Below, in pieces: positions 28,634-43,142 of a DNA stretch of 63,713 nucleotides. A program made the translations under genes and the position numbers. The notes beneath the pieces are model-generated. The model had not been told where the DNA came from and searched no databases. It was given only the letters and a program-made list of their open reading frames with translations. This stretch comes from Candidatus Bathyarchaeota archaeon B24 (GTDB lineage: Archaea > Thermoproteota > CALKCG01 > B24), in the NCBI GenBank assembly GCA_001593865.1, contig LUCB01000006.1, positions 1 to 63,713 on the forward strand, in the 5' to 3' direction. Positions within the stretch are counted from its first letter, which is position 1. Every line of letters starts with the position of its first letter.

Positions 28634-28921
28634 ATGATAGAAGTGGGTAGAGTCTGTGTCAAAACCATGGGCCGGGAAGCAGGTAGAAAATGCGTAGTAG
28701 TCGATATCATAGACGAGAACTTCGCCCTCATAACCGGTCCTAAATCCATCAGCGGTGTTAAGAGGCGTAGGGTGAACATCAAGCACATCGAGCCTACACC
28801 TTACAAGCTAGACATATCCCGAGGTGCAAGCGACGACGAGGTCGTCAAAGCCATAGAGAAGGCTGGATTAAAAGAAGTATTCGAAAAGCCTCTGAAACCT
28901 GAGAGGAGGGCTGTTTTCTGA
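28634..28921 (+). CDS. rpl14e: Ribosomal protein eL14
   Basis: 95-aa KOW-fold large-subunit protein: [40 protein letters not shown] and HIEPTPYKL. Preceded by GTGGGAGG. The stop TGA overlaps the apparent CTG start of cbf5 (CTGA). Confidence 0.93.
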
Positions 28922-29921
28922 GGTATCAGGCTCCTTGGGAGGTTAAGTGGGATAGGCTTTACAAGTCTTTCGACGAGACCAACGAGGCTTATGGTAAACC
29001 GCCTTGGAGAAGAAGCATCGAGGAGCATCTAAGATATGGGGTCGTAGTGCTCGATAAACCGGCTGGCCCTACAAGCCATGATGTAACGGCTATGGTTAAG
29101 AGGATCGCGAACGTCGAGAAGGCTGGGCATGGGGGGACCCTAGAGGTTTAAGCCGGGGAGATCCCCCTGCCACAGGGGTCTTACCGATAGCTTTGAACGA
29201 GGCGACTAAAGTCCTTCAGGTTCTACTATCAGGCGGTAAAGAATATGTATGCGTTATGAAGCTTCACGGTGATGTCTCCGAGGAAAGGCTTCGAGAGGTC
29301 GTCGAGGAGTTTCAGGGAGATATCTACCAGAAGCCTCCGCTAAGGTCTTCCGTTAAGCGAGCATTAAGGATTCGACGAATCTACTACATCGATCTCCTAG
29401 AGGTTGAAGGTCGACTTGCTTTGCTTAAAGTCGGCTGTCAAGCCGGCACGTACATCCGGAAGCTCGTACACGATATCGGTGAGGTCCTAGGCTGTGGGGC
29501 GCATATGAGGGAGCTCAGGAGAACTAGGGTCGGGCCGTTCAGCGAGGAAAGAGGTCTAGTCACGCTTAGAACACTTGCCGAGGCCTTCGAAGCATATAGG
29601 GCAGGTGATGAAAAAACCCTCAGACGTGTAGTCCAGCCGGTCGAAGAGGTCCTCGCCTTGACGCCTAAGGTGTGGATCAGGGATACGGCTGTGGATGCGA
29701 TATGCCACGGCGCCGACCTCGCGGTTCCAGGGATAGTGAGCCTGAATTCAGGTATAAAGACCGATACTCTTGTCGGGATCTTCACGCTTAAAGACGAGCT
29801 TGTCGCGTTGGGTAGGGCGTTAATGTCTAGCGAGGAGATTCTAGAGCGGGAAAAAGGCATAGCTGTTAAGACAGAGAGGGTCATCATGAAGCCTGGTACA
29901 TATCCTAGGATGTGGAAGTAA
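28918..29921 (+). CDS. cbf5: tRNA/rRNA pseudouridine synthase Cbf5 (TruB family), intron-split
   Basis: Catalytic subunit of H/ACA RNPs and of tRNA U55 pseudouridylation (dyskerin homolog). Exon 1 (28918-29143) encodes [16 protein letters not shown] and AGHGGTL. Exon 2 (29161-29921) continues with [17 protein letters not shown], the catalytic domain ([18 protein letters not shown]) and a PUA domain ending [11 protein letters not shown]. Read straight through, the frame stops at 29149. Removing the 17-nt intron 29144-29160 gives 328 aa and the catalytic Asp76 of GTLDP. No ATG/GTG/TTG exists before the conserved N-terminus. CTG 28918, 8 nt after GGAGG and overlapping the eL14 stop, is the likely start. 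Calling it a pseudogene would be wrong if the intron is spliced. Confidence 0.9.
29144..29160 (+). other. 17-nt archaeal bulge-helix-bulge intron in cbf5
   Basis: Exon 1 and exon 2 pair through 29132-29137 (GGGGGA) with 29162-29167 (TCCCCC) and 29126-29129 (GGCA) with 29168-29171 (TGCC). The 4-bp central helix is CCCU (29138-29141) with GGGG (29155-29158). It is flanked by two 3-nt bulges, both AGA (29142-29144 and 29159-29161). The intron closes on an inner stem GGU/GCC with loop UUAA. Cutting each bulge after its second nucleotide, as the archaeal splicing endonuclease does, removes exactly 29144-29160 and restores the reading frame. Confidence 0.88.
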
Positions 29922-40470: not shown

Positions 40471-41871
40471 GTGGCTCCAAGGGAGGCCTGCGCGGTATTT
40501 TCAGCGTACTCTAGGTCGGCCGATGCAGATGTCTCAGGCCTGATATTCGGCGGTCTCCTAGCCCTACAGCATAGGGGTCAGGAGTCGGCCGGCATGACCG
40601 TTTTAAAGAATAATAGGCTTCTAACGTTCAAGGGAGTGGGGCTTGTGCTTCAAGTATTCGACCGAAATGTCCTGAAGGAGCTGAGGTCGCCTAGAGGCAT
40701 CGGACATGTAAGGTACTCGACCTACGGAGCTTCTGCCTTCAGAAACGCTCAACCCATAGAGTTCAACTCTAAGCCAAGGTTCGCCTTATGCTTCAACGGC
40801 ACTATAGTGAACTACGACGAACTCAGGACAGAGCTTAAAGGTAAGGGCTATCGGTTCGAGACGACTTCTGACTCAGAGGTTATAGGATATCTGATCTCGG
40901 ACGGTCTAAAGCACAATTCCACGCTCGTCGAGGCCATACGGTATGCGATGGATAAGCTCGAGGGAGCATACTCGGTGACTCTGTTATCCGAAGACGGTTC
41001 AATGGCTGTCTTCAGAGACCCCTATGGGTTCAGACCGCTGTGCATGGGATACATGAAGGACCTGGACGCCTATGTATTCTCATCCGAAACCGCCGGTCTA
41101 GACGCGGTAAACGCCTCGTTCATCGAAGACGTTCAACCAGGCTCGATAAAGCTCGTGGAAGATGGAAAAGTTAGAAGCGTGAAGGTATCAGAAAGTAGAC
41201 ACGCCCACTGCATGTTCGAATGGGTCTACTTCGCGCGTCAAGACTCCGCGATAGAAGGCATAGACGTTTTCGAGGTTCGGTGGAGACTTGGCGAAAAGCT
41301 TGCTGAGCTCAACCCCGTCGACGTAGACTACGTGGTCCCCGTCCCCGAGACCAGTAGGGTCGCGGCCTTAGGGTATTCGGCTAGGTCTGGTATACCGATC
41401 ATGGAGGGCTTCGGGGTTAACAGGTACGCCCTTAGGACGTTCATAATGCCTGCGAACAGAGGCTACTTTGCGAGGCTTAAACTCAACCCTCTCAAAAGGG
41501 TTTTGAAAGGTAAGCGTATAGTGCTCATAGACGATAGCATAGTGAGGGGGACGACGTCGAGGACCATAGTTTCGATGCTTAAGAAAGCAGGTGTAAAGGA
41601 GGTTCACCTCAAGATAACCTGTCCACCTCTGATAGCGCCGTGCTATATGGGTGTGGACTTCCCGACGTTCGAGGAGCTGATCGCCCACGGTAGGAGTGTA
41701 GAGGATATCCGAAGGGCCATAGGTGCCGATAGCTTAACGTATATGACGGTTGAAGGGTTGGTAGAAGCCATAGGCCTCCCTAGGGATGAGTTGTGTCTAG
41801 CCTGCTTGACAGGCATATATCCCGAGGGTATACGACCCAGGTTTAAGAGTAGAGAGGTGATCAAGAGGTGA
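40471..41871 (+). CDS. purF: Amidophosphoribosyltransferase PurF (glutaminase-active copy)
   Basis: First committed step of purine synthesis: PRPP plus glutamine to phosphoribosylamine. The 466-aa protein has a short propeptide and then catalytic Cys7 (REACAVFSAYS). Glutaminase residues follow in LQHRGQESAG, GHVRYSTYG, NGTIVNYDEL and SDSEVIG. The PRPP loop is VLIDDSIVRGTT. Four Fe-S cysteines of the Bacillus-type enzyme are seen (HCMFEWVYFAR, LIAPCYMGVD, LCLACLTG). GTG start. Stop overlaps the second purF (GTGA). Confidence 0.95.
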   Translation: MAPREACAVFSAYSRSADADVSGLIFGGLLALQHRGQESAGMTVLKNNRLLTFKGVGLVLQVFDRNVLKELRSPRGIGHVRYSTYGASAFRNAQPIEFNSKPRFALCFNGTIVNYDELRTELKGKGYRFETTSDSEVIGYLISDGLKHNSTLVEAIRYAMDKLEGAYSVTLLSEDGSMAVFRDPYGFRPLCMGYMKDLDAYVFSSETAGLDAVNASFIEDVQPGSIKLVEDGKVRSVKVSESRHAHCMFEWVYFARQDSAIEGIDVFEVRWRLGEKLAELNPVDVDYVVPVPETSRVAALGYSARSGIPIMEGFGVNRYALRTFIMPANRGYFARLKLNPLKRVLKGKRIVLIDDSIVRGTTSRTIVSMLKKAGVKEVHLKITCPPLIAPCYMGVDFPTFEELIAHGRSVEDIRRAIGADSLTYMTVEGLVEAIGLPRDELCLACLTGIYPEGIRPRFKSREVIKR

Positions 41872-43142
41872 GCGGTTTAATCGGTATATTCGCCTTCGAC
41901 GAGCTATGGTCTATAGCCAGGTTCATATATTACGGGCTTATGGGGCTACAGCATAGGGGTCAGGAGTCAGCCGGCATAACGACCGTCAAAGATGGTAGGT
42001 TTTACACAAGAGTCTGTAAGGGGCTTGTCGAGGAAGCGTTTAAGGAGGATGCTTTGAAAGGGCTTCCGGGTCATATAGGATGCGGCGGGGTTTCGATGGA
42101 CCCCGCGGTTTCTCAGCCCATAGTCATAGAGGACCGTGGCAAAAGCTTGGCGTTAACCTTCTCAGGAGGGCTTCTAGAAGGCGATTTGAAAGACTTCGGG
42201 TTAGCACTTCTCAGAGAGCTCTCTAAAAGCGACCCGGAGCAGGCGGCTTTGACCGTTATGGAGCGTTTCAAGGGTGGATACAGCTTCCTAGCCTTAACGA
42301 ACGACGGCCACATCGTAGCCGGTAGAGACCCGATGGGTGTAAAGCCTCTATGCGTAGGTGGGTTAGGCTTCGACTTGGCGGTTTTCGCATCAGAGTCGTC
42401 GGCCCTAGACGTGGTCGGAGCCGACCTATCTAGAGAGGTGGAACCGGGCGAGGTTATGTCCGTCGAGATGTTCAGCATAAAAAGGGCTTCTACAGGCTAT
42501 AGTAGACGCGCCTACTGTAGCTTCGAATACGTATACTACGCCAGGCCAGACTCTATAATGAACGGTATCCATGTGTATGAGGTGAGGAGACGGATAGGCC
42601 TATTGCTCGCTAAGGAGAACCCGGTCGAAGCCGATGTCGTCATAGGGGTTCCTGAAACCGCTATACCCTTCGCGATGGCTTATTCACAGGCCACAGGCAT
42701 ACCTGTCGAGATGGGTTTCATGAGGACCGGTAGGTCCGTTAGGACGGCTATAAAACCCACCCAGTTCGAGAGGCTCGTAGGCGTCCAGCTTAAGCTTAAC
42801 CCGGTCAGAGCCGCGGTTAAGGGTAAAAGGGTTGTGCTCATAGACGATAGTGTAGTGAGGGGGACGACTTTGAGGAACACCGTGTATCTTCTAAGGAAGA
42901 GAGGGGCTAAAGAGGTTCACGTCAGGATCGGAAGCCCCGCCATCGTCGCCAGATGCCCCTACGGCACGGCCGTACCTCCCGAGGACGAACTCATAGGTAG
43001 GGCTTTAAAGCCAGACGAGATAGCCCAGGTCATAGGCGCCGACAGCTTCAGCTACCTAAGTGTCGATGGATTAACCGAGGCCATAGGTCTTCCCAAGGAC
43101 AGCCTATGCCTAGGATGCTTCACAGGGGAATACCCGATCTAA
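41868..43142 (+). CDS. PurF paralog with inactive glutaminase domain
   Basis: 424-aa second copy of PurF. The N-terminal nucleophile is replaced (MSGLIGIF instead of MCGI). The RYST pocket is now HIGCGGVSMD, the NG oxyanion site is FSGGLLEGD, and the downstream Asp site is lost. In contrast LQHRGQESAG, the PRPP loop VLIDDSVVRGTT and the four Fe-S cysteines (YCSFEYVYYAR, IVARCPYG, LCLGCFTG) remain. It probably cannot use glutamine. It may form a hetero-oligomer with the active copy, act on ammonia, or regulate. Translationally coupled to purF by GTGA. Confidence 0.88.
   Translation: MSGLIGIFAFDELWSIARFIYYGLMGLQHRGQESAGITTVKDGRFYTRVCKGLVEEAFKEDALKGLPGHIGCGGVSMDPAVSQPIVIEDRGKSLALTFSGGLLEGDLKDFGLALLRELSKSDPEQAALTVMERFKGGYSFLALTNDGHIVAGRDPMGVKPLCVGGLGFDLAVFASESSALDVVGADLSREVEPGEVMSVEMFSIKRASTGYSRRAYCSFEYVYYARPDSIMNGIHVYEVRRRIGLLLAKENPVEADVVIGVPETAIPFAMAYSQATGIPVEMGFMRTGRSVRTAIKPTQFERLVGVQLKLNPVRAAVKGKRVVLIDDSVVRGTTLRNTVYLLRKRGAKEVHVRIGSPAIVARCPYGTAVPPEDELIGRALKPDEIAQVIGADSFSYLSVDGLTEAIGLPKDSLCLGCFTGEYPI

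Follow-up and report, generated by a model that had tools for sequence, protein, structure and literature searches.

A 17-Nucleotide Bulge-Helix-Bulge Intron in the cbf5 Gene of a Bathyarchaeotal Genome and Its Same-Site Counterparts in TACK and Asgard Archaea

The introns of crenarchaeal cbf5 genes, known from a few thermophiles, are located between nucleotides 1 and 2 of the codon for the catalytic aspartate (Yokobori et al. 2009, PMC2738675). Their published lengths are 16–44 nt (PMC2738675, Table 1), the shortest, of 16 nt, being found in Desulfurococcus, and spliced cDNA has been reported for crenarchaeal cbf5 (PMC2738675). The 2020 paper that describes the bulge-helix-bulge (BHB) intron of Haloferax volcanii HVO_1309 names the crenarchaeal cbf5 intron as the sole earlier additional example (PMC7714728). 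The host range published in the accessible literature consists of Desulfurococcales and Sulfolobales. No cbf5 intron from outside the Crenarchaeota was found in the literature searched, where subscription papers fall mostly outside the coverage and absence is no proof.

In this report, we describe the cbf5 gene, which encodes an RNA pseudouridine synthase, in a window of 63,713 nucleotides (contig LUCB01000006.1, positions 1 to 63,713) from Candidatus Bathyarchaeota archaeon B24; all features given below lie on the + strand. The host belongs to neither the Desulfurococcales nor the Sulfolobales. In the Cbf5 tree its order, which includes a genome deposited under the name Ca. Bathyarchaeota SKYB62, is a supported clade in its own right (100/98), separate from the clade with the Desulfurococcales-labelled family f53. 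An earlier note on this DNA had stated that cbf5 introns are known in some Crenarchaeota, and those introns occupy the same site (PMC2738675). The insert described here shares with them the gene, the nucleotide position, the cut between nucleotides 2 and 3 of the bulge, and the short length, but its BHB motif is canonical, whereas most of the structures new in PMC2738675 were termed unconventional. The interruption of the active-site codon, to which the note had drawn attention, was confirmed, but it is the rule for the cbf5 intron and no peculiarity of this genome. The BHB introns of archaeal tRNAs have the same motif, similarly small sizes (11–175 nt, PMC2738675), and presumably the same EndA and RtcB machinery, but they interrupt a tRNA and not a protein-coding gene. 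The intron of HVO_1309 likewise belongs to an mRNA processed by EndA, although it is found in the 5' UTR (PMC7714728) and the intron in the window interrupts the coding frame. The kind of intron, its site, and its size class are already known, and 17 nt is no record; what is new is the host range of the same-site cbf5 intron, which is wider than published.

The 17-nt insert, AGGTTTAAGCCGGGGAG, was read directly from positions 29144–29160 of the window, and its borders were set by frame restoration, fold, and comparative alignment. Without splicing, the frame of exon 1 (28918–29143, from translation and relatives), which reads ...EKAGHGGTL, continues through E-V to a TAA codon at 29149–29151, and the remainder of Cbf5 is found in a different frame. 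The translation thus agrees with the claim that the frame stops at 29149 after AGHGGTL. Deletion of the 17 nt yields a continuous Cbf5 up to the stop codon at 29919–29921. The last base of exon 1 is the G of the catalytic Asp codon, and its junction with exon 2 (29161–29921, from translation and the TruB and PUA domains) at 29143/29161 forms G|AT and restores GGTLDP, as had been proposed. The spliced protein matches the Pfam families DKCLD, TruB_N, TruB_C_2, and PUA, and it aligns over nearly its full length with solved archaeal Cbf5 structures (2aus, E 2e-120). No second full cbf5 was found in a search of the host genome, which is a draft metagenome bin that is 90% complete. In-frame ATG, GTG, and TTG codons are all absent upstream of the conserved N-terminus, and the start codon is probably a CTG that overlaps the stop codon of L14e (28918–28921), since the sister genus has a TTG at the corresponding position.

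The minimum-energy fold of the local 42-mer (-19.7 kcal/mol) is the same canonical BHB that had been proposed from inspection, with CCCU/GGGG, AGA bulges, and a UUAA loop. A 7-bp outer helix between the exons, with its 5' strand GGGGGGA in exon 1 at 29130–29136, is followed by the 4-bp central helix, whose 5' strand CCCU at 29137–29140 is supported by the fold and by covariation in 125 introns. Each strand has an AGA bulge. The 5' bulge region is 29141–29145 (fold and bulge tally), in which AGA is 29142–29144 and positions 29141 and 29145 flank it; the 5' splice site at 29143/29144 leaves AG on the exon side and A on the intron side. Within 29144–29160 are the 3-bp inner stem GGU/GCC, the UUAA loop, the 3' strand GGGG of the central helix, and, at the end of the intron, AG as the first two bases of the 3' bulge. 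The folding-energy z-score of an 81-nt stretch is modest (-1.82 vs shuffles), and therefore folding energy alone is no proof and the case rests on comparison.

Across all loci read, 125 distinct introns were identified at the exact cbf5 site. A 12-nt "intron" in Sigynarchaeota (L171/L177) was rejected as the product of a spurious border setting, and these loci were left out of the intron statistics. The central helix is paired in 490 of 500 cells (98%), compared with a mean of 448 and a maximum of 458 in 2000 shuffles, a comparison that ignores kinship and whose figures are not probabilities. All four central pairs are present in 116 of the 125 introns, and the compensatory exchanges in this helix include C-G, U-A, and A-U. 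With ACC, ACT, or ACA as the Thr codon, the base in the intron that faces the third codon position is mainly G, A, or T, respectively. The 5' bulge is AGA in 103 of the 125 introns. The Leu codon CTA ends exon 1 in 101/125 intron-bearing genes vs 8/107 intronless genes, and it is favored at this place because the 5' bulge needs AG. Some cbf5 genes read AHAGTL in place of GHGGTL. The lengths, from 13 to 76 nt, cover all three classes modulo 3, and therefore not all of these introns can be translated through.

Any frame-breaking insert in a draft bin can in principle be read as a sequencing or assembly error or as the mark of a decaying pseudogene. The earlier note had suggested that the cbf5 genes of related genomes be aligned and that an independent genome be inspected for an uninterrupted frame. 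The second sampled genome of the host genus was found to carry the identical 17 nt at the same site, with no uninterrupted frame, and in the sister genus the intron at that site is 16 nt long and differs in sequence; taken together, these inserts exclude an assembly error. Two other families of the order have introns of 33, 34, and 76 nt, and the same-site intron is present in 7/7 genomes sampled from the order. Both exons are conserved, and with no second full copy of the gene in the genome, an error or a decaying pseudogene is extremely improbable. The frame would also be restored if the insert were retained in the mRNA and the ribosome hopped across it by programmed bypassing or frameshifting. 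This explanation is scarcely credible for inserts of 13–76 nt in three classes modulo 3, with a covarying BHB and 3-nt bulges at their borders, and for a gene whose crenarchaeal homologues have given spliced cDNA (PMC2738675). The insert at 29144–29160 is almost certainly a genuine BHB intron of an archaeal cbf5 pre-mRNA.

Two genes of the EndA family were found in the host genome. The first (G000:C17) encodes a protein of 186 aa with a DHAPY motif, for which the best match is the splicing endonuclease 3p1z_B (E 7e-46). The second (G000:C26) encodes a more divergent protein of 194 aa with no His at the aligned place, and a gene for RtcB is located about 2.3 kb away from it, the two genes lying within some 4 kb (G000:C26:70689–75025). 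The pair of a DHAPY-type and a divergent EndA presumably fits the alpha-beta heterotetrameric type, and the two subunits may form one complex. The cbf5 transcript would fold into the canonical BHB, the two-subunit EndA would cut each 3-nt bulge after base 2 with release of the 17 nt, and the RtcB ligase would join the exons and so complete GAT, the codon for the catalytic aspartate. Translation of an unspliced mRNA would stop at 29149–29151, ahead of the active site. From the genes present, cleavage by EndA and ligation by RtcB are predicted to happen in the cell. This model is supported by the restored frame and protein, the canonical fold, the conservation across the order, the covariation, and the presence of genes for EndA and RtcB, as well as by a position and phase that equal those of the crenarchaeal introns with cDNA support (PMC2738675).

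Within the phylum of the window, the same-site intron was found in 94 of the 136 genomes in which the site was read and in 42 of the 51 sampled families, although the sample is biased toward genomes that resemble the window and these frequencies are not unbiased. Five families are mixed for the presence of the intron. The bearers include Ca. Bathyarchaeota SKYB62 from the order of the window (33 nt), Bathyarchaeota RBG_16_48_13 (22 nt), Ca. Terraquivivens (20 nt), Ca. Pelearchaeum (22 nt), Thermofilaceae archaeon S146 (26 nt), SJ3.Bin21, which is labelled Methanomethylicota (22 nt), and genomes of the Aigarchaeota type. Intronless cbf5 genes are found in Methanomethylicia (f7), Thermoproteaceae, Pyrodictium, and families f6 and f22, among others. 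Introns of 13–14 nt, shorter than any published for cbf5 (16 nt or more), were found in families f8, f9, f15, and f18; introns of this length were read at loci L039, L046, L050, L052–L054, L057, L058, L033, and L034. The intron in the window had been expected to be among the smallest in archaeal mRNA; 17 nt is indeed short, but the 16 nt of Desulfurococcus (PMC2738675) and the 13–14 nt introns of this comparison are shorter. The minimal intron of family f9 consists of one bulge base and a GCAA loop closed by an A-U pair, followed by GGGG and a further two bulge bases.

The Asgard sample was made up of 139 genomes of the phylum that contains a Jordarchaeia genome. The cbf5 gene is uninterrupted in most of them, and the same-site intron is found in four clades. 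These are Jordarchaeia/Freyarchaeota (31–32 nt); the group of G408, G425, G441, and G448, one of which was deposited as Jordarchaeia QC4 (29–35 nt); LC30 with G469 (41 nt); and G419, G427, and G442 (30–35 nt). The intron-bearing cbf5 of G408 shares a 1.1-Mb contig with genes for full-length Ras-family GTPases, and the gene order L34e-cmk-L14e-cbf5 is retained there; this contig is therefore no stray contaminant. The Asgard bins G486 (L265, G486:C57) and G455 (L266, G455:C131) each hold a second cbf5 copy with an intron. In the Cbf5 tree these second copies group with genes from the phylum of the window (TACK); they are probably the result of binning contamination and were set aside. The intron is absent from every euryarchaeal and DPANN cbf5 whose site was read. 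Judged by length, the cbf5 frames of 95 Thermococcus-phylum genomes and 126 Methanothrix-phylum genomes are generally too long for a break at the site; the few shorter frames, considered as a group, involve partial matches, contig ends, other breaks, or shorter haloarchaeal proteins.

The state of the intron must change 17–20 times on the Cbf5 trees, and in the careful tree the supported branches require at least 10 of these changes. The intron-bearing genes form one clade in 0 of 200 bootstrap trees. The sister of one intron-bearing Asgard clade is intronless Asgard, with support of 100/91, and the placement of another such clade close to intronless Asgard genes is moderately supported. The spread of a single intron-bearing cbf5 gene by horizontal transfer could be read from the second copies in G486 and G455, which group with TACK genes even if they resemble contamination. 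The lack of a single clade and the intronless Asgard sister nevertheless make one such spread improbable; horizontal transfer is unlikely as the sole explanation, and local transfers are possible.

The intron may instead date back to the ancestor that TACK and Asgard archaea have in common and have been lost many times since. Its identical base position across so many sampled families and the four Asgard clades argues for this history, the mixed families indicate frequent recent loss or change, and the euryarchaeal genes read have no intron despite the common GGTLDP motif. Against it stand the poor resolution of the deep gene tree, the changes placed on supported branches, and the absence of the intron from most Asgard genomes, and we hold it as a tentative reading with a substantial chance of being correct. 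Repeated independent gain, which we regard as possible but rather doubtful, would account for the patchy distribution and for the number of state changes on the trees. The exon codons of the GGTLDP motif on the two sides of the site are complementary to each other (GGGAC / GATCC), so that the coding sequence itself would supply a ready outer helix for inserts spliced by EndA. This explanation would require the same phase every time, and no such gain was seen in euryarchaea with the same motif. Old presence is slightly preferred over repeated gain because of these euryarchaea.

With its range across the phylum and into the Asgard archaea, the cbf5 intron changes from a late crenarchaeal oddity to one that is old or repeatedly gained. 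The Asgard archaea are the closest archaeal relatives of eukaryotes. If the intron was present in the TACK and Asgard ancestor, a coding intron with tRNA-type splicing would be far older than the crenarchaeal orders, and it would have been carried by lineages near the archaeal ancestor of eukaryotes. Because of the wide same-site range, how an archaeal mRNA intron arises and is lost can be tested directly. In intron-bearing genomes, ordinary gene-calling programs cut cbf5 short, with the loss of the catalytic residue.

Elsewhere in the window, two PurF-like ORFs are located side by side at 40471–43142, and by reading only, the N-terminal nucleophile Cys of the second is seemingly missing. The Cbf5 proteins of L059 (G007:C11, from the phylum of the window) and L270 (G421:C9, Asgard) each contain an in-frame intein that has both splicing and LAGLIDADG domains, and the insertion point in both of these cases is YIRKL|C. 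Open frames of 836–867 aa for Cbf5 are also found in G449, G450, G453, and G505. The cbf5 gene of G007 carries a BHB intron and an intein together.
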